This document shows, piece after piece, positions 12,745 to 26,421 of a DNA stretch of 30,044 bases. The position numbers were made by a program, and so were the translations under genes. Below the pieces are notes generated by a model. The model ran no database searches. It worked only from the letters and a program-made list of their open reading frames with translations, and was not told where the DNA came from. How positions within the stretch are numbered: the stretch's first letter is position 1; every line of letters begins with the position of its first letter. This DNA is from a virus, in IMG/VR virus record IMGVR_UViG_3300028372_000326, positions 1-30,044 of that record. One strand, given 5' to 3'.

Positions 12745-12989
12745 TTAAGTCACCCTACGAGGAGAGCTTCAATGATTTGCGGGTAATCGCTTTGATGGAG
12801 ACCGAGCCGATGTCTAATTCGTATGCTCAGATTATGCTCACCAAGGAGCAGAAGCTACAGATGCTGAATTTGCTAGAGAGCTTTTTTGTTCACCCAGAGG
12901 AAGGTGGGTTTATTGTTCCAGCGCTAGAAGTGCCGATTTTCATAGAGGATGTGAAGGATGATTATACGCAAGCAGAAATAGAGGCATGA
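12741..12989 (+). CDS. Hypothetical small protein
   Basis: An 82-residue acidic protein, with a helix containing TKEQKLQMLNLLESFF and a strand-rich end (GGFIVPALEVPIFIEDV). It overlaps both neighbours by 4 nt, so it is translationally coupled to the HIT gene downstream. No family is recognised. Confidence 0.65.
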   Translation: MIKSPYEESFNDLRVIALMETEPMSNSYAQIMLTKEQKLQMLNLLESFFVHPEEGGFIVPALEVPIFIEDVKDDYTQAEIEA

Positions 12990-13369
12990 AAAATAAATCG
13001 AATATGGCGACAAAATTACGGAGTGCGGCTACTTGGGAGCGTTACCAGCATGAGCCTCAAAGACCGGCTGGCAATTGCTTTATGTGTGAGATAGAGGCGA
13101 TGACGGTTATCACTGAGTTCACTCATTGGCGGTTGATTGAGAATAACTATCCGTATGATGCGGTAGCTGAGGTTCACCACATGCTCGTGCTGAAAGCTCA
13201 TGCCTCTTTTGATGAAGGAGTAAGTGAGGCTGCTAAAGAGGAGCTTGGTCTGATTAATGCGGCGTTTGAGGAAGGTGGTGAGTACGACTGCATCATGCAG
13301 AACTATCCGGTTGGTCAGTCACAGCCGCAGCACCTGCACTATCATTTATTGACTTGGAAGCGTGTATAA
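12986..13369 (+). CDS. HIT-family (histidine triad) nucleotide hydrolase/transferase-like protein
   Basis: The 127-residue protein ends with HLHYHLL (116-122), an exact H-x-H-x-H-x-x histidine triad whose central His is the nucleophile in Hint, Fhit and GalT relatives. CFMC at 31-34 matches the zinc-binding CxxC of GalT-like HIT proteins, and NNYPYD (53-58) is the conserved nucleotide-binding stretch. Family members hydrolyse dinucleoside polyphosphates or AMP conjugates, or transfer NMP groups. In a phage it might clear alarmone or nucleotide signals, or be a nucleotide-metabolism helper. It may start at an internal ATG, 13004. Confidence 0.85.
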   Translation: MKNKSNMATKLRSAATWERYQHEPQRPAGNCFMCEIEAMTVITEFTHWRLIENNYPYDAVAEVHHMLVLKAHASFDEGVSEAAKEELGLINAAFEEGGEYDCIMQNYPVGQSQPQHLHYHLLTWKRV

Positions 13370-13575: not shown

Positions 13576-13700
13576 GATGCGCTCGCTGTCATGCGGTGAT
13601 ACCCGCCGGTGGTGAGTACACGCACAAGGGATTGCATTTCCACACCATCGAGTGTCTCATCGAGTACTTTTTACATCGAAAGGGGGTGACTAAATCTTGA
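13572..13700 (+). CDS. Small LIM/TRASH-like zinc-finger protein
   Basis: A 42-residue frame starting MRCARCHAVIPAGGEY. The C-x2-C, then HFH and a downstream Cys (HTIEC), match one treble-clef zinc finger of the kind found in small phage and PARP-type fingers. It is coupled to the upstream zinc protein by ATGA and followed by a strong terminator 23 bp downstream. The function is unknown. Confidence 0.65.
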   Translation: MRCARCHAVIPAGGEYTHKGLHFHTIECLIEYFLHRKGVTKS

Positions 13701-13722
13701 CTGCTAGGAACAGACTAGCTAG

Positions 13723-13755
13723 GGAGGGGACAAATTGTACCCCTCCTTTTCTTTA
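13723..13755 (+). terminator. Strong intrinsic terminator
   Basis: GGAGGGG (13723-13729) and CCCCTCC (13740-13746) form a perfect 7-bp GC-rich stem with a 10-nt loop, followed at once by TTTTCTTT. It ends the 12363-13700 operon. Confidence 0.9.
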
Positions 13756-13789
13756 CCCCCACCTCTGTATATACATGTATAGCGAGATA

Positions 13790-13798
13790 TGATATAAT
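13790..13798 (+). promoter_or_regulatory. Extended -10 promoter for the structured RNA
   Basis: TG-A-TATAAT is a perfect extended -10 (hexamer 13793-13798); no clear -35 is seen. Transcription would start near 13805, at the first base of the first stem of the structured region. The terminator just upstream isolates this unit from the previous operon. Confidence 0.75.
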
Positions 13799-13804
13799 GG
13801 ACGG

Positions 13805-13980
13805 AGTGGGGAAGTTTCACGAACATGTACTTCTCCCACTGGCTCTACGTTGTGGCCTACGTTCGGTGTAGGCCGGAGGGTGCAGGAAGCGGTCTTGAAA
13901 ACCCATTTCTGTATCGCTGGGCGTACACCCTAGTCACGCTATATGTACATAGCGCCCTCCGGTCTGTCTCGAACAGATTT
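13805..13980 (+). ncRNA. Candidate structured non-coding RNA, about 175 nt
   Basis: No protein-like frame is present, but several stems are: AGTGGGGAAGT (13805-13815) with ACTTCTCCCACT (13829-13840); GGCCTAC (13854-13860) with GTAGGCC (13868-13874), perfect; CCGGAGGGTGC (13873-13883) with GCGCCCTCCGG (13952-13962), 11 bp with one G-U; a smaller CTGGG/CCTAG stem near 13917-13933; and CGCTAT (13937-13942) with ATAGCG (13949-13954), an alternative to the base of the long stem. A TCTGT/ACAGA stem ends it. It may act in cis as leader of the gene at 13999 or in trans, like a packaging or decoy RNA. No known RNA class is recognised. Confidence 0.6.
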
Positions 13981-13998
13981 ATAAATAAAAATTAAGAT

Positions 13999-14271
13999 AT
14001 GAAGATACAAATTACAATGCTGATTATAGGAATCCTACTCGTTTGGGGAGGAGGGTTTCTAGTTGGGTCAGTGTATGAAGCAGGGAAGCATTGGACTGAT
14101 GAGCAGATTCTGAAGATGTACGCTTGCGGGCGAGGTGATGGAGAAGTTTTCACCTACGAAGACAGTGATGAGATTGGTTGTCTGGTCGATGGGGAAGCTT
14201 TCATCGTACAGTACAACGGAGGCTCAGAGTTTGTCGAAGGTCGAGTTACTAGCACATCAACTTCACAATAG
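13999..14271 (+). CDS. Small membrane-anchored protein
   Basis: The 90-residue protein starts with a hydrophobic helix (ITMLIIGILLVWGGGFLVGS, about 4-23) with a Lys before it, so it is probably an uncleaved anchor with the rest outside, or a signal. The remaining part is acidic (YEDSDEIGCLVDGE) and ends Ser/Thr-rich. It directly follows the structured RNA. It could belong to a lysis or superinfection function, though nothing specific shows this. Confidence 0.65.
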   Translation: MKIQITMLIIGILLVWGGGFLVGSVYEAGKHWTDEQILKMYACGRGDGEVFTYEDSDEIGCLVDGEAFIVQYNGGSEFVEGRVTSTSTSQ

Positions 14272-17014: not shown

Positions 17015-18673
17015 ATGAGACACGCTTTAATCCAAGAGTACTACAATTCAGACGAGTATCTGACGAAATTGCGGGCGCGAATGAAGAATTTTCAGGAAAT
17101 GCACGAAAATGAGATGGTTCGGGCTGAAAGACTGCTCGACATCTATGCAAATGACCCGGTGAAGTTCATTGAGGACTTCTGTTTCTTGAAATTGACTGAA
17201 TATGATGCTCAACCCAAGCCTTTCTTCATGTTTCCGTACCAAATCAACATTGTGAACAAGATTCGGGAGTTCGAGGACTCTCACTTGGACATTGACTGTC
17301 TCATTGACAAGCCCCGAGGTATGGGTTTGACTTGGTTAATCACGGCTTACTTCACTTGGAGGTGGCTTTTCTACCCAAACTACTCGGATTTCGTGCTTTC
17401 ACGTACTGAGGCTGAAGTAGATGACGGAACAGCCAATCCTGATGGTTGTATCTTCGGTAAAATCCGTTGGCAGCTCAATATGTTGCCTTCTTGGATAAAA
17501 CCAGACGGATTCAAGCCAAAAGGGTCGAAGGGAACGGCCACAGACTCGATGCTAAAGCTCTTGAACCCGGATATTGGTACATCCATCATCGGAAGCTCTA
17601 CAAACTCCAATGCGGGGCGTTCTAGGCGGTATTCGACTACATTTCTTGATGAGTGCTTCTACATTGAACACTTTAAGGAGGTAAACCGCGCTTTGACCTC
17701 AGTATCACGTATGAAAATCTACGTTTCGACCACTGTGGAGTCAAAAGTAGCCCTAGACTTCAAGAATCGATGCGAAAAAGAGGGTACATATCTGCCTCTA
17801 ACATGGCGTGACCACCCTTGGAAAGACCAACAATGGTACGAAGATTTGCAGCAAAAAGCGATTGATTTGGATGACCCTGACCTCATGCGTGAGGCTCAAA
17901 TCGATTATTCTGTGTCTCCGAAGTCTCAGTACTACCCGAATGTGACAGAAGCGGAGGTAGTGCCACTGGAGTATGTGCCGAATCGACCTCTCTACATCAG
18001 TCTCGACATGGGAGGTCGTCAGGACAAGACGGTGATTGGATATTGGCAGTTCAATGGTAGAACCTTTGACTTGATTGAAGCGTATGAGAACACCAACAAG
18101 CCTTCAGTCTGGTATGTGCCGTATTTGACCCCAAATGCTTCAATGGCAGACATTAATAACGAATTGGCTCGGTTATCAAACACCAACAAGACAGATGGCT
18201 TCTACAACCAACCACAGCTCGATTTCATTGAGAAAGTGAATGGTTGGCACAAGCCAGTAGCCCACTTTGGAGAACTCGACCATACCATCAAGCGCCGACC
18301 AACCAATCAGTCAGATGCTGATACATTCCGGCCTTATGGAATCAACTTGCGCTACAACCAGTACGCCATCAACCACGAACCAAGACATCATGCGACTACA
18401 ATGATGCTCCCCCGGATGCGATTCAATAGCGAATCACCGGGAGTGATGCGAGTGTATGATGCTGTATCTAATGCCAAGTATGCAGCGAAGCCCGGAGCAA
18501 CGAGTGAGAACCTCAAGCCAGTTCACGGTACTGACGGAACAGCTGACCGCCGTGTGATGGTTGAGAACTTCTCGGTGAATGTCGGGAGATTATTAAAGAG
18601 CCAGCGGAAGAATATAACAGATGCCAAAACTCGTTCATTTTCTTCTGCTATAATTAAGAGCCTAAAAGTATAA
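17015..18673 (+). CDS. terL: Terminase large subunit
   Basis: The 552-residue protein has a Walker-A-like KPRGMGLTW (99-107), in which the usual GK-S/T is replaced as in Mu-like terminases ('ARQ.G.TW'), and Walker B TTFLDE around residue 210. The C-terminal nuclease begins with YISLDMGGRQDKTVIGYW (about 329-346), whose Asp binds metal. Length and order match a packaging motor with ATPase followed by RNase-H-like nuclease. It translocates DNA through the portal encoded downstream at 21476. A perfect extended -10 for groEL lies inside its 3' end. Confidence 0.9.
   Translation: MRHALIQEYYNSDEYLTKLRARMKNFQEMHENEMVRAERLLDIYANDPVKFIEDFCFLKLTEYDAQPKPFFMFPYQINIVNKIREFEDSHLDIDCLIDKPRGMGLTWLITAYFTWRWLFYPNYSDFVLSRTEAEVDDGTANPDGCIFGKIRWQLNMLPSWIKPDGFKPKGSKGTATDSMLKLLNPDIGTSIIGSSTNSNAGRSRRYSTTFLDECFYIEHFKEVNRALTSVSRMKIYVSTTVESKVALDFKNRCEKEGTYLPLTWRDHPWKDQQWYEDLQQKAIDLDDPDLMREAQIDYSVSPKSQYYPNVTEAEVVPLEYVPNRPLYISLDMGGRQDKTVIGYWQFNGRTFDLIEAYENTNKPSVWYVPYLTPNASMADINNELARLSNTNKTDGFYNQPQLDFIEKVNGWHKPVAHFGELDHTIKRRPTNQSDADTFRPYGINLRYNQYAINHEPRHHATTMMLPRMRFNSESPGVMRVYDAVSNAKYAAKPGATSENLKPVHGTDGTADRRVMVENFSVNVGRLLKSQRKNITDAKTRSFSSAIIKSLKV
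18646..18654 (+). promoter_or_regulatory. groEL promoter inside terL 3' end
   Basis: TG-C-TATAAT is a perfect extended -10 (hexamer 18649-18654) that would start RNA near 18661. A second TATAAT at 18669-18674 lies 7 nt before ATG 18682, again the leaderless geometry, but it lacks the TG. Either would allow groEL to be expressed independently of terminase. Confidence 0.6.
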
Positions 18674-18681
18674 TAATAAAT

Positions 18682-20238
18682 ATGAGAAAAACAAAAGCAA
18701 TTTACGGAGAAGAAGCACGAGAGGCACTGATGAGTGGAGTTGAACAAGTATTCCGAGCCGTAGCTCCAACGATGGGAGCGAAAGGACGAAACGCTATTTA
18801 TAAAAAGTACGGTATGCCAATCGTAACCAACGATGGTGTATCTATCGCCCGCGAAATCATTCCTGAAGACCCATACGAGTATTTGGGAGCTGAATCAGTC
18901 AAACAAGCAGCTGAGGAGACTAACTTCATGGCTGGTGACGGTACTACTTCAACGATTGTGTTTGCCCATCACCTGATTGAAGCAGGGGCTGAGCTAGTAA
19001 GAAATGGTTACAATCCAATGGTTTTGCGCCGCGAAATGGAGGTTGGTACAAAGAAGATTCTCGAAGCATTAAAGGCTTTGTCTATCCCGGTTGAGAATCT
19101 CGAGCAAGTAGCCCAAGTCTCTGTAGAAAACGATGAGATTGCCAAGATGGTTTCAGAGCTGGTAGACAAGGTAGGAGTTGATGGAGCAATCGATGTCTTT
19201 GAAGCACCGGGAGGAAATGTCCGAGCAGAAAGCGTTGATGGCTACACCTTCAATTCTGGCTGGACTTCTCCATACATGATTAACACCAATAAGGGTGAAG
19301 CGGTACTCAACAACCCAGCAATCATCGTCACTGACCGTTCTATGAACCTCAATGCTGACTTTGTGCAGTGTCTCCAGTCTCTCAAGAGTGGTGGCTACAG
19401 TTCAGTGCTAGTAATCGCTACTGAAGTTGAAGGCGAGCTACTACAGACACTTCTAGCCAACAAGGAGAAGAACGTGATTCACACTGTAGTAGTGAAGCGA
19501 CCAGAAAGTATCGAGGAACTAGAAGACATTGCTGCTGTTACTGGTGCGATTGCAGTTACGACTGGAAAGGACATCAAAGACATTACGATTGACCAATCTG
19601 GTATCGCTGAAAAAGTTATCGTAAGCGACAAGAAAACTGTCATTATTGGAAAGGAAGATTTCAAAGACAAAGTAGCTGAACGAGTTGAAGAAGTCCGTAA
19701 TGCTATCAAAGCCGAAGACGGTGAGAAGTATGGGCCAGTTAAAGGACTCGAGCTTCGACTATCTCGACTAGCTGGTGGAATTGCACGTATCAAAGTTGGT
19801 GCGAGTACTGAAGCTGAGCAGTCATATCTGAAAATGAAAATTGATGATGCTGTTGGAGCTTGTCGAGCTGCTCTGCAAGAAGGAATCGTACCGGGAGGTG
19901 GAACGACTCTACGTGACCTAGCCAAAGTGCTAGATGACAAGATTGCCGGTGAAGCAGTTATCGCCGATGCTCTTGGTCAACCATATCTACAGATTCTAGC
20001 GAACGCTGGCCTCATCCTTCAAGACGGTGACGGAGTTGGAAACTTCAACGTACTGACTGGAAAGAATGTAGAAGACATGATGGCTGAAGGAATTGTAGAC
20101 CCAACAAAAGTAACTCGATGTGTAATCGAGAACGGTGTTTCCACTGCTAAGACATTGCTTACTACGGAGACAGCTATAGCTGACATTGAGTCTTCACCTG
20201 CTCAAGCATTTGCGGATTCTCTGAGAGTGCAGCGTTAG
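18682..20238 (+). CDS. groEL: Phage GroEL chaperonin
   Basis: The 518-residue protein aligns with GroEL end to end: GAKGRNA (32-38), NDGVSIAREI with the ATPase Asp, GDGTTST (phosphate loop) and the apical domain in the middle. IKVGASTEAE, IDDAVGACRAALQEG with the Asp398-type residue, and VPGGGTT follow. Cellular GroEL is about 545 residues; the C-terminal Gly/Met tail is missing and the end is QAFADSLRVQR. No groES is seen, so it would use host GroES or work without, as proposed for EL-like phage chaperonins. Its position between terminase and portal suggests folding of virion proteins. It overlaps recA by 65 nt at its end. Confidence 0.93.
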   Translation: MRKTKAIYGEEAREALMSGVEQVFRAVAPTMGAKGRNAIYKKYGMPIVTNDGVSIAREIIPEDPYEYLGAESVKQAAEETNFMAGDGTTSTIVFAHHLIEAGAELVRNGYNPMVLRREMEVGTKKILEALKALSIPVENLEQVAQVSVENDEIAKMVSELVDKVGVDGAIDVFEAPGGNVRAESVDGYTFNSGWTSPYMINTNKGEAVLNNPAIIVTDRSMNLNADFVQCLQSLKSGGYSSVLVIATEVEGELLQTLLANKEKNVIHTVVVKRPESIEELEDIAAVTGAIAVTTGKDIKDITIDQSGIAEKVIVSDKKTVIIGKEDFKDKVAERVEEVRNAIKAEDGEKYGPVKGLELRLSRLAGGIARIKVGASTEAEQSYLKMKIDDAVGACRAALQEGIVPGGGTTLRDLAKVLDDKIAGEAVIADALGQPYLQILANAGLILQDGDGVGNFNVLTGKNVEDMMAEGIVDPTKVTRCVIENGVSTAKTLLTTETAIADIESSPAQAFADSLRVQR

Positions 20239-21130
20239 CCTTCTCCTTACCGATACCGAGCTTAGTCTCGCCAAACATATAGGTGTTACCCTCTCGCAGG
20301 ATAACGCCTTTTTTGGTGGCTACTTCAACCATGTTCAGTTCTGAGTGAAAGCCATCAGAAAACATAAACCTCATCTCCCCTTCGTGGTTGTTCATGCCTA
20401 CCTTGTTTTTCTTCATCTGAAACCTGATTTGCTGACCAAGAATCTCATCGCCCTTCTTGAGCTTACCCATGTTACTGAGTCTGATGCTCACTGAGATGTA
20501 GAAGCTCAAAGACATACCTCCCGGTTTTGTGTATGGGTCGAATGTACCACCCATGATGTTCTTCCGTAGCTGGTTGATGAAAATAAGCACCGTATCATTC
20601 TTCGATACTAGTGGTACGAGTCGGCGTAATCCTGAAGCAACTAGTCGCGCTTGGCCACCCATCGTTGGCTTGTTCACTTCTGCCTCTAGTTCCGGCACTG
20701 GAATGAGTGAAGGGATTGAGTCAACCACAATGAAGTCAACTAGTTTATCTCGGAGCATTTGTTCGATAGTATCAAACACTTCTTCACCAGAGTCTGGCTT
20801 CAGCACAATTAGGTTATCAACATCAACTCCCATCGCTGCTGCGTGCTTAAAGTCGAGAGCGAACTCAGCATCAACAAACATACATACCTTCCCTTCTCTT
20901 TGAGCTTGAGCGATACCATAGAGGCACAAACTTGTCTTAGTCGAACTAGCGAGTCCGAAGATTTCAGTGATTCTTCCTTTTGGATAGCCCCCACAGCCGA
21001 TTGCATAATCTAGTAATTCAACTCCTGTTGACTGGCCTTCGACTTTAATTTTGTTGCTTCCCACTACCGCAATATCCTTCTTTGCGTGCTTGTTGATTGC
21101 ATCGAACGCCGCTTTTACTTTTTTATCCAT
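20174..21130 (-). CDS. recA: RecA-type recombinase with altered Walker A
   Basis: ATG 21130 (MDKKVKAAFD) gives 318 residues. RecA features are DAEFALD (87-93, DAEHALD in bacteria), VDFIVVDSIPSL (131-142) and FINQLRKNIMGGTFDPYTKPGG (184-205, loop L2). Walker A is GLASSTKT (59-66), where the glycine before the Lys is Thr; T4 UvsX shows a similar loss. The C-terminal domain is shortened against the usual 350. It catalyses strand exchange in phage recombination. It is the only leftward gene in the late region, with its own promoter, and overlaps groEL tail to tail. Confidence 0.9.
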   Translation of the reverse strand: MDKKVKAAFDAINKHAKKDIAVVGSNKIKVEGQSTGVELLDYAIGCGGYPKGRITEIFGLASSTKTSLCLYGIAQAQREGKVCMFVDAEFALDFKHAAAMGVDVDNLIVLKPDSGEEVFDTIEQMLRDKLVDFIVVDSIPSLIPVPELEAEVNKPTMGGQARLVASGLRRLVPLVSKNDTVLIFINQLRKNIMGGTFDPYTKPGGMSLSFYISVSIRLSNMGKLKKGDEILGQQIRFQMKKNKVGMNNHEGEMRFMFSDGFHSELNMVEVATKKGVILREGNTYMFGETKLGIGKEKANAALSENPQMLEQVKTQCQL

Positions 21131-21153
21131 TTTATTTTTATTATTATCGTTAA

Positions 21154-21170
21154 ACTGTATACAGTATAGC
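21154..21170 (-). promoter_or_regulatory. recA promoter with palindromic operator
   Basis: On the minus strand TG-C-TATACT is an extended -10 (hexamer 21163-21168), with RNA start near 21156 and a leader of about 26 nt. A perfect 12-bp palindrome ACTGTATACAGT (21154-21165) covers the end of the -10 and the start site, an ideal place for a repressor. It resembles LexA half-sites but with a much shorter spacer. Confidence 0.6.
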
Positions 21171-21188
21171 ATCCTTGCCCGCGAAAAC

Positions 21189-21206: not shown

Positions 21207-21479
21207 ATGCGTAAAAATATTGTAGTTTTTCTCGAAAAGGTCTGTGGAGAGCTTGGTCTCTCAGCTAACTATATGCTCGGCAAAGATGTCTATGTCATTC
21301 ACAAGCGTGGTTACGCAATACAGAATTTTAATACTACACAGTTCTACCAAATCCCGAAGCCGAAACGGAGACAGCTTCTGAGAGGAATCCTGAAGCGCGG
21401 TCTGACTCACAATATGGGAGAAAGAAATGTAAAAGACAATCTAAAAGTTAAAAGCCAGCTAGGTAAGCGCATTGTATGA
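21207..21479 (+). CDS. Hypothetical small basic protein of the head operon
   Basis: ATG 21207 gives 90 residues (MRKNIVVFLEKV); the frame is open upstream, but that part crosses the recA promoter. The protein is basic, with a strand pair (GKDVYVIHKRGYAIQNF) and a basic helix (KPKRRQLLRGILKRG). It overlaps the portal start by 4 nt. It may be a head-assembly or DNA-binding accessory; no family is recognised. Confidence 0.65.
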   Translation: MRKNIVVFLEKVCGELGLSANYMLGKDVYVIHKRGYAIQNFNTTQFYQIPKPKRRQLLRGILKRGLTHNMGERNVKDNLKVKSQLGKRIV

Positions 21480-23470
21480 GACCAGAAACAAAATCAGGTA
21501 AATATAAAATCGAGGACTTCTATCGCCCTAGTGATTTAGCGCTGGAACATATTGGTGGTGAATACCAAGACTTTTATAAATACAAAAATGACCGTCAATC
21601 AGCATACCGGCAAATTCAACACAAAACTCTTGATGATTTTTGGACTGAATCTCGGATGCTTTTTTGGAACTCTACTGTCACTAAGTCTGAAGACCTAGAA
21701 GCGCTCGGACTCGACTTCTCACTACCTTTCGTTCGGAAGGAGGTTCTTGATTTTACTGGCCGAATCGTTTCACTCGGTATCTCACCTCAGCTATCTGGCG
21801 ATGAGATGAATATGTATTCCACTCAAGTACTCCAAGCGATGTACAAAAAGTGGCGGCTGAAGTCAAAAGACAAAGTGGAAAAGTTTTGGCAGATTCTATA
21901 CGCCACAATGAACGGTACTATCTGTAACTACGTTGGGTATGACATGGATGAGCGAGACCTGCGCTACCTTACTGAGTCTGACCGCGCCAACAACAACTTC
22001 ACCATCAAGGACAAGAAAACCAAAATGTGGAATGATGCCTTCACAGAGATTGTCCCATTGGAGGAAATCTACCTGAAGAAAATCTGGGAACGAAACATTC
22101 AGAAGCAGGGCAAGACTATCCGAATGAAGGAGATGCACATTGATGACTTCCGTTCAGAGTTTCCTGAAGCGAAATACAAGAACGCTGAGTTCGTTGTGCC
22201 GGGTAATCAAATTGATGAAGACTCACTATTCCACAAGCTGCTTGGTGGTACTCAGTTGCTACAGTCAGACAAGATTCAAGTGATGACCTCAATCGATACT
22301 GACAAGGATGAGAAGAAGGTTATGGCTAACGGTATCTGGCTTGATGAGCTAGGCAAAGGTGTTGCTCGACCAAATCCATTCACTCACAAAGGTCAGCCAT
22401 ACACTTGGACTGTTCACGAAGCTATCGATGATAAATTTGCATACGGAATGTCGATGCCATTCTTGCTGAAGGACACAACCAAGATTCTCAACACTTCATA
22501 CACAATGCTTGTAGAGCGAGAGCTACGTTCTATCGACCCACCAATCATCACCTCAGACTTTGAAGCACCTGACCTCATCTTTGGTCAGCAACGAGTTGTG
22601 CCGGTAAACGATGTGACCGCCTACAAGGAGTTCCAAATCAACGATGCTTCTGGTGCATACTTCACTATGATGAACTCACTCCAAGGAATGATGTCATCCT
22701 TTGCTCAAGGTGGTTCTTCAAACATCGTGCCTTCTATCCAGCCAAAGTCTGCGAAGGAAATCAACGAACTCGAGAAGATGAAGCAGCAAGCTCTTGGAAA
22801 CACATTGCTGATGTACTACGACCTATTGCATCAGGAGATTTTCTTGCTACTCAAGACCATGCTTCAGTTCTACGAAACTGGAAAGTACAGCGCCAACGGA
22901 AATGTTGTGCGTAACTTTAGTATCTCTAATGCTCCCCTCTCTCGTGGTGGCGTTGGTACGCTTGAGGTCAAGTTCGTGAAGAATGTGAGCAAGGACATCG
23001 ACCTTTACTTTGAAGCAGTTCAGAAGGGAATCGAAAATGGTAAGACTACTGAGATTATCGAAATGCCAATGGAGGTGATTCAGAATCTTGAAGTCTTCAT
23101 CGATGAAATTAAACTCGAGCCTGAGAAGTCAGACGAAATGGAACGAGCATCATTCAACGAAGGAGTGCTGCAACCAATGCTCGATGTATTCATCCCAGCT
23201 GGTGTCGCTGACATCAATAAGACCTACCTACGATTCCTTGAGAAGCATGGTGAACATCCTTCTAGCTTTACTTCTGACCAGAACATCGGTCAGTTGATGG
23301 GCGGTCAACCAAACCAGCAGCAACAGCAACAAATGGCTATGCAACAGCAAGCTATGGGCGGTGGCCAAGGTACTGGCCGTCAGAACTCTCCTGCACAGCA
23401 AGGGAATTTGAATCAAAGTGCTACCGGCATGAAGTTCGGTTCTCAAGCAAACAAGGGGCTTGAACAATAA
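21476..23470 (+). CDS. Portal protein
   Basis: A 664-residue protein placed between terminase and scaffold/capsid genes. It has the layout of large portals: an N-terminal mixed region, a core with a long helix (EINELEKMKQQALGNTLLMY) and a Gln-rich, Gly-rich disordered tail (about 615-664, QQQQQQMAMQQQ). Segments such as DFTGRIVSLGISP and SIDPPIITSDFEAPD resemble portals of podovirus- and siphovirus-like phages of the large class. It would form the 12-mer DNA gateway. The call rests mainly on size, order and helix pattern. Confidence 0.8.
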   Translation: MRPETKSGKYKIEDFYRPSDLALEHIGGEYQDFYKYKNDRQSAYRQIQHKTLDDFWTESRMLFWNSTVTKSEDLEALGLDFSLPFVRKEVLDFTGRIVSLGISPQLSGDEMNMYSTQVLQAMYKKWRLKSKDKVEKFWQILYATMNGTICNYVGYDMDERDLRYLTESDRANNNFTIKDKKTKMWNDAFTEIVPLEEIYLKKIWERNIQKQGKTIRMKEMHIDDFRSEFPEAKYKNAEFVVPGNQIDEDSLFHKLLGGTQLLQSDKIQVMTSIDTDKDEKKVMANGIWLDELGKGVARPNPFTHKGQPYTWTVHEAIDDKFAYGMSMPFLLKDTTKILNTSYTMLVERELRSIDPPIITSDFEAPDLIFGQQRVVPVNDVTAYKEFQINDASGAYFTMMNSLQGMMSSFAQGGSSNIVPSIQPKSAKEINELEKMKQQALGNTLLMYYDLLHQEIFLLLKTMLQFYETGKYSANGNVVRNFSISNAPLSRGGVGTLEVKFVKNVSKDIDLYFEAVQKGIENGKTTEIIEMPMEVIQNLEVFIDEIKLEPEKSDEMERASFNEGVLQPMLDVFIPAGVADINKTYLRFLEKHGEHPSSFTSDQNIGQLMGGQPNQQQQQQMAMQQQAMGGGQGTGRQNSPAQQGNLNQSATGMKFGSQANKGLEQ

Positions 23471-25308: not shown

Positions 25309-26421
25309 ATGAACCCAGAAACTCTATATCAAGGCGCAACAGATGTTTTCCTAGCCAAAGTCCGAGCTGACTTTGATGCTATTGAAGACCAAGCGCTGAC
25401 TTCATTCGAGGCGTACAAAACGTACTCTCTTATGGGGACTGACCCTATGGCCGATTCTCTCTTTACTGACGTTGGTGAAACAACTGAAGACGGAGACCGA
25501 GCTGTATGGCGACACATCGGTACAACTGGTGTGGAAGGAAGTGGGAAGCGTAGTGCCGGTGGTACTTACCCACGAGCTACTTTCATCCGAAACTTCGAGA
25601 CCGAAGTATTTGACCCGGATGAACAGGATGCAAACTCATTCCTCGTACCAGACGAGCGAAATGACAAGGAAGGTAAGAAGTACGCAACAATCCTTGGGCG
25701 TGCAAAGAAACTTCTTATCAAGCAGAACCGAACTAACATCCAAGACCCATTTGAAGTATTCAACCTAGCGTTTACTGCTCCAAGTGACATGCCAACACGA
25801 TTGTTCGTGCGAGGTAATGCCGGTCTTGATGGAAATAAGACTCCTCTAAACGAGCGTCTTATCTCAATTCAGCACGCACGAGCAGATGGTGGGGCAACTC
25901 AATCAAACGCAGTGCAGTCAGCAGGAAATGCGCGAGCCTTCTCTGATGATGCTTACTTCGCAGCCCGCGAACAAGGTGCTACGTTCACAGATGATGTTGG
26001 AGAAGATTCTCCTCGATTCGGTGGTAATACCACAATCATCATCCCTCCAGCAAACGGACTTGTCCGAGCTGCGAAGGAAATCAACGAATCAGATAAAGTT
26101 GTTGGGTCAAACAACAACGAAATCAACGTACATTCAGGTATGTTTGGCCGAGTTATTTCAACTCCAAGCCTTCTACGGTCTAAGTATGTCTCAGGTGTAA
26201 CTGACACAAACAAGTGGTTCTTGGTAGACGAGTCTTCTCGTGATGCTGAAACTGGTTGTGGACTTGTCTGCATCAGCTTCGTACCGCTAGAAACTGACGT
26301 ATACCGCGACAGTGGTGTTGACTCAGTTGTGTACAAAATGAAGCAGACTAAGGTTTACGGATTCATCGACTGGCGAAACATCGTTGGTTCAAAGGGTGAC
26401 GGAAACGCTTACTCAGCCTAG
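25309..26421 (+). CDS. Major capsid protein, HK97-like
   Basis: The 370-residue protein is in the right place (after the scaffold) and size for an HK97-fold capsid. It has an N-terminal helix region (FLAKVRADFDAIEDQALTSF), a stretch that could be the E-loop (GSGKRSAGGTYPRATF), the spine-helix-like EGKKYATILGRAKKLLIKQ, and an end rich in strands (VYKMKQTKVYGFIDWRNIVG). The fold is inferred from this layout. It would assemble the icosahedral head with the scaffold-like protein. It is followed by a stable RNA hairpin rather than a U-tract terminator. Confidence 0.75.
   Translation: MNPETLYQGATDVFLAKVRADFDAIEDQALTSFEAYKTYSLMGTDPMADSLFTDVGETTEDGDRAVWRHIGTTGVEGSGKRSAGGTYPRATFIRNFETEVFDPDEQDANSFLVPDERNDKEGKKYATILGRAKKLLIKQNRTNIQDPFEVFNLAFTAPSDMPTRLFVRGNAGLDGNKTPLNERLISIQHARADGGATQSNAVQSAGNARAFSDDAYFAAREQGATFTDDVGEDSPRFGGNTTIIIPPANGLVRAAKEINESDKVVGSNNNEINVHSGMFGRVISTPSLLRSKYVSGVTDTNKWFLVDESSRDAETGCGLVCISFVPLETDVYRDSGVDSVVYKMKQTKVYGFIDWRNIVGSKGDGNAYSA

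Follow-up and report, generated by a model that had tools for sequence, protein, structure and literature searches.

Leaders of the ompA/papA type carry a hairpin at the extreme 5′ end, tolerate sequence change and lie upstream of an operon, and stabilization of an mRNA by a 5′-terminal stem-loop is, as far as the references listed in PMC3997798 indicate, an established mechanism. The putL RNA of phage HK022 lies just downstream of its promoter, forms stem-loops, is paired from about nucleotide 3 and works without a protein factor dedicated to it (PMC9378689). Staphylococcal phages produce the structured cabRNA, a CBASS trigger, from the late region at its terminase end (PMC10686824), and PMC11476376 describes the packaging RNA (pRNA) as a feature that only phi29-like phages have. 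Here we describe a structured non-coding RNA of about 175 nt that follows an extended −10 element in a tailed phage, the 30,044-bp IMG/VR virus record IMGVR_UViG_3300028372_000326 (the window; coordinates are positions within it). We hold with moderate confidence that it forms a structured 5′ leader on the transcript of the late operon and acts in cis. It is a real, uncatalogued structured RNA of the structured-operon-leader kind, and its unusual property is a kept fold combined with extreme local sequence turnover. It resembles ompA/papA-type leaders in its 5′-terminal hairpin, sequence tolerance and position, but differs in having a second multi-hairpin domain computed to be bistable, in being hypervariable and in lacking a ribosome-binding Shine-Dalgarno sequence. 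With cabRNA it shares the structured nature and a place at the terminase side of the late genes; CBASS sensing is so far a feature of cabRNA only.

The nearest relatives were two phages almost identical to each other, L002 and L003; L017 is more distant, with about 67% identity in the terminase (TerL). The locus contains the following features.

13723–13754, plus strand: intrinsic terminator (stem and tail), separating the RNA from the upstream genes
13770–13798, plus strand: predicted late promoter, with a −35-like TATACA (13770–13775), a 17-nt spacer and the extended −10 TGATATAAT (13790–13798)
13805–13840, plus strand: hairpin 1 (HP1), 10–11 bp with one bulge, at the predicted 5′ end of the transcript
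13841–13853, plus strand: linker GGCTCTACGTTGT, common to the window and L003 and replaced in L002
13854–13874, plus strand: hairpin 2 (HP2; strands a:b), 7–8 bp with a UUCG loop; strand b has an alternative partner in the tail
13861–13880, plus strand: switch strand b (HP2 loop, HP2 3′ arm and P3 5′ strand), used by both alternative folds
13875–13960, plus strand: P3 domain, a stem (13875–13880/13955–13960) around three hairpins, abutting the HP2 3′ arm
13879–13903, plus strand: part of P3 resembling tRNA-Ser(UGA), with 23 of 25 nt identical to the phage GMA2 tRNA-Ser
13916–13954, plus strand: hairpins P3b and P3c, with complementary loops GUACA/UGUAC and a possible kissing interaction
13961–13979, plus strand: hairpin 4 (HP4), or tail strand a′ (GGTCTGTCTCGAACAGATT), competing with the P3 extension
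13999–14271, plus strand: small membrane-protein gene 3′ of the leader, absent from L002 and L003
14273–14542, plus strand: gene matching PHROG 11049, which is the first gene directly 3′ of the leader in L002 and L003

The terminator, whose stem pairs GGAGGGG (13723–13729) with CCCCTCC (13740–13746) and whose tail TTTTCTTT extends to 13754, was little changed in the relatives (its region is about 95% identical in L002 and L003), and the promoter was kept there without change. The motif TGNTATAATG had a single exact occurrence in the window, namely this extended −10, and a sigma70-like promoter was present at the corresponding place in L017 and in two further loci, L057 and L062. The predicted +1 is at about 13804–13806, and HP1 starts at the predicted +1 in the window, L002, L003 and L017. 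No terminator was found 3′ of the structured RNA, and the transcript would continue into the late operon. The RNA thus appears to begin at the promoter and to precede the operon with no terminator between, as expected of an operon 5′ leader, in a layout common to L002, L003 and L017. The original prediction, made from the letters of the window, had placed a terminator at 13723, the extended −10 at 13790–13798 and the stems correctly; its proposal of an independent RNA was not supported, given that no terminator follows and that the RNA has the look of a 5′ leader belonging to the late transcript, nor was a leader specific to the membrane gene at 13999, which L002 and L003 lack. Because the downstream gene varies between phages, the element belongs to the operon and not to one gene. 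The start at +1, the lack of a terminator of its own and the different first genes in different phages together make a cis-acting leader the best view.

Folding of the 192-nt RNA gave −72.3 kcal/mol (z = −3.6), and none of 200 dinucleotide shuffles was as good. Between L002/L003 and the window, identity was about 95% from terminator to promoter and about 97% over the downstream 4.4 kb, but only 45–59% in the RNA. Comparison of the window, L002 and L003 revealed four one-sided and two double changes with zero broken pairs in HP2, three double compensatory pairs in HP1 and one double change at the base of P3, so that compensatory base changes of the kind expected of a structured RNA were found, in a small sample. 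These pairs were tabulated from folded stems, as a MAFFT alignment of HP2 that included L017 misplaced the stem. L017 contains an RNA at the matching place of its late operon with no similar sequence and z of about −4.8, in the order promoter, 5′ hairpin, 9-bp hairpin with a UGCG loop, and abutting stem around a different interior. Folding, paired changes between relatives and the matching RNA in L017 bear out the earlier suggestion of a real structured RNA, which was to be judged by covariation in homologues and by conservation of a reading frame across the stems; covariation was found, though among few sequences, and no conserved frame was. The same suggestion held that the region has no protein-like frame, which needs amending in one respect: a 56-aa open reading frame (13825–13995) crosses the stems. 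It is broken in the relatives, and no frame is conserved in L002, L003 or L017, by which we rejected a protein-coding reading.

Analysis of alternative pairings revealed that, in the minimum-energy fold, 13861–13880 pairs with 13955–13974, so that HP2 gives up its loop and 3′ arm to the tail and P3 is extended, its stem lengthening to 12 bp. Enforcing HP2 cost 5–7 kcal/mol in all four RNAs (window, L002, L003 and L017), and all four exhibited an a–b–a′ layout in which strand b pairs either with the upstream a or with the downstream a′. Of 300 shuffles, 10, 8, 2 and 1 reached the strand-competition score of the window, L003, L002 and L017, respectively; this score was devised after the pattern had been seen, and the counts serve as a guide and not as a clean test. 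As the window, L002 and L003 are mutually related, L017 is the independent case. Strand competition is supported by the recurrence of the layout in L017 with unrelated sequence, the bistability being as computed. The competing stems proposed earlier, including competition of HP4 with extension of the P3 stem, were accordingly recovered by folding. The competing strand of L017 contains a possible start codon; that of the window does not. The GGTCTGTCTCGAACAGAT of the tail is identical in L002 and L003.

On this layout, transcription would start from the promoter at 13770–13798 with HP1 at the extreme 5′ end. HP2 would form next and then P3, while the P3 5′ strand may pair into HP2 (early fold); once the tail is made, strand b would shift and P3 would be extended (late fold). 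HP1 may shield the 5′ end of the long late transcript from decay, and the ordered refolding may affect the elongating polymerase, for instance by antitermination of the put kind, or access to the first gene. The function is most likely 5′-end protection or elongation of the late transcript. Such a leader would be a compact means of controlling late genes in phages whose uncultured host uses almost no Shine-Dalgarno sequences: over the whole window, a Shine-Dalgarno motif preceded 3 of 39 starts, T stood at −1 in 82%, and upstream regions were A-rich.

Several points weigh against a cis-acting leader. HP1 alone would suffice for simple 5′-end protection, leaving the 130-nt domain unneeded and hypervariability unexplained, and the case for a leader is computational throughout. 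The group comprises four RNAs only, two of them near-identical outside HP1/HP2. A scan for promoters with strong folding behind them, covering those of 31 TerL-matching loci whose upstream sequence could be used, singled out L057 and L062 beyond the window, L002, L003 and L017. In favour of a leader, both of these more distant relatives have an extended −10 promoter and then a strongly folded leader ahead of late genes; against it, they have no sequence in common with the window and could be separate cases. In L062, a leader of about 160 nt, folded throughout (2472–2632), runs from a strong promoter up to the start codon of the gene immediately upstream of TerL, and this start codon is inside a long hairpin. 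For most other TerL relatives searched, either nothing comparable was seen or the contig stops short of the region, and no comparable RNA was found in the leaders of G001 and G002; the trait is not universal in the wider TerL group.

The variation between relatives was strikingly local. In an 18,568-bp alignment of L002 and L003, 47 of the 55 differing columns fell within 85 bp of the RNA (L002 7053–7137, spanning HP1 through the HP2 loop) and 8 outside them; the remaining RNA was identical in the two. The window has the linker of L003 but a different P3 interior, replaced relative to L002, L003 and L017. The RNA is a mosaic of swapped hairpins; the three close alleles would fit local recombination in one event, selection for diversity, or the two together. 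Assembly error is unlikely because each allele builds its own intact stems. A hypervariable sequence with a kept shape suggests that shape is selected while sequence is free or driven to change. It is possible, though we advance it tentatively, that the late-mRNA leader keeps its strand-exchange fold while being rapidly re-shuffled by whole-hairpin swaps (including the tRNA-Ser piece) under selection for new sequence, such as escape from an RNA-sensing or RNA-cutting host defence, or phage-to-phage specificity. Hypervariable cassettes that code for protein are well known in phages; a structured RNA with such hypervariability at the start of a late message is, to our knowledge, unusual. The leader could mark an arms race at the RNA level, or a function dependent on the fold alone.

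An RNA antiterminator like put, in which the nascent leader binds RNA polymerase and allows read-through of the long late operon, would account for a structured RNA paired almost from +1 directly after a phage promoter, as in HK022 putL (PMC9378689), and for a late operon of more than 14 kb that includes about 1.2 kb left untranslated on the plus strand where recA/uvsX is antisense. We consider it unlikely. Put RNAs are about 70 nt long, consist of two stem-loops, are similar in sequence and serve early operons, whereas the present RNA is 2.5 times as long (about 175 nt), hypervariable and in a late operon; the distinction is drawn by size and layout against PMC9378689. The operon region had 17 terminator-like sites against 16.6 expected, which is no excess, and more promoter-like sites lie within the operon (21175 and 18646).

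Hypervariability would be explained better by a trans-acting or immunity RNA processed from the leader, as in P4 CI and P1 c4, or by a decoy, its sequence being diversified by selection between phages. In P4 and P1, one RNA segment within a leader is complementary to sites lying to either side of it, and the a–b–a′ order resembles this layout. The tRNA-Ser anticodon arm in P3 of the window also bears on it: 13879–13903 matched the tRNA-Ser(UGA) anticodon arms of phages GMA2 and D6 with a score reached by 0 of 2000 shuffles. Database E values were 2–7 (about 2 for GMA2), so the weight rests on both matches being tRNA-Ser, and the D6 tRNA was annotated by its depositor on the strand opposite to the match. 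The stretch appears to be an anticodon-arm fragment and not a tRNA with a full cloverleaf; ARAGORN found no tRNA or tmRNA in the window and, at a lowered threshold, none in the window, L003, L017 or L057. This alternative is nevertheless quite doubtful, since strands b and a′ are almost invariant among close relatives, the opposite of what specificity needs, and the tRNA-like stretch is confined to the window, being absent from L003 and L017. There is no sign of lysogeny: the records, possibly incomplete, contained no integrase or resolvase. Among C4 RNA families, the window had no match, and the sole one, in L003, reached 11.3 bits against a threshold of 46.7.

Other searches placed the RNA in no catalogued class. 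Rfam gave no match for 13600–14100 of the window at the gathering score, nor any at E ≤ 10, in line with the earlier remark that its class was unrecognized; L003, L017 and L062 gave sub-threshold chance matches only. A riboswitch with a conserved ligand-binding core was rejected, as the P3 interior is unrelated among the window, L003 and L017. No near DNA neighbours were present in the phage collection, and the 17-nt tail pattern was found across viral contigs only in L002 and L003, plus four matches in apparently unrelated contigs. A match of L003 to Pakpunavirus genomes was attributed to chance, being antisense to a coding gene, with a tRNA label covering most of the record.

A chance fold in a freely evolving, non-functional gap would fit an intergenic, fast-changing region known from few sequences. 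It is improbable in view of the fold significance, the paired changes and the matching L017 architecture, and free drift would not pack 47 of 55 differences into 85 bp between otherwise near-identical phages.

The phi29 pRNAs, compact multi-hairpin RNAs with complementary loops that pair between molecules, conserve shape more than sequence, and the present RNA likewise has a closed stem, several hairpins and complementary loops, in the window (P3b/P3c; P = 0.006 from loop shuffles for this pair, with 15 loop pairs examined) and in L003 (P = 0.07); kissing-loop and HP2–HP4 loop contacts are suggestive in P3 of the window and weak elsewhere. A packaging RNA, one of the roles first proposed, is very improbable, because the terminase weakly matches the T4-type Terminase_6N N-terminus (just below the family cut-off) and not phi29 gp16, the phage is not phi29-like and pRNA is described as confined to such phages (PMC11476376), L017 has a single hairpin lacking such loops, and no terminator follows the RNA to yield a separate transcript.

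Genes of the late operon and its surroundings were assigned as follows.

17015–18673: terminase (TerL), the weak T4-type Terminase_6N match
18682–20238: GroEL-like chaperonin, directly after the terminase gene
20174–21172, minus strand: RecA/UvsX-like gene inside the plus-strand operon
21476–23470: portal-like protein, with a weak PHROG match to a head-tail adaptor
25309–26421: likely capsid gene, with no family match and assigned from position

Searches of bacterial genomes with the portal and TerL proteins for a host gave no match. Upstream of the leader, a 127-aa gene (12986–13369), possibly HIT-like by its HLHYH stretch, has no counterpart between its flanking genes in L002 and L003. In a 101-kb phage contig (L009, 3885–3901), the same 17 nt as in the tail hairpin occur in a tRNA-cluster gap within a longer inverted repeat, which could be chance. 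Just upstream of the chaperonin gene lies the promoter-like TGCTATAATT (18646–18655), which may be a conserved internal promoter because DNA similarity to L015 and L017 begins there. In the distant relative L031, a chaperonin-like frame also stands immediately after TerL.
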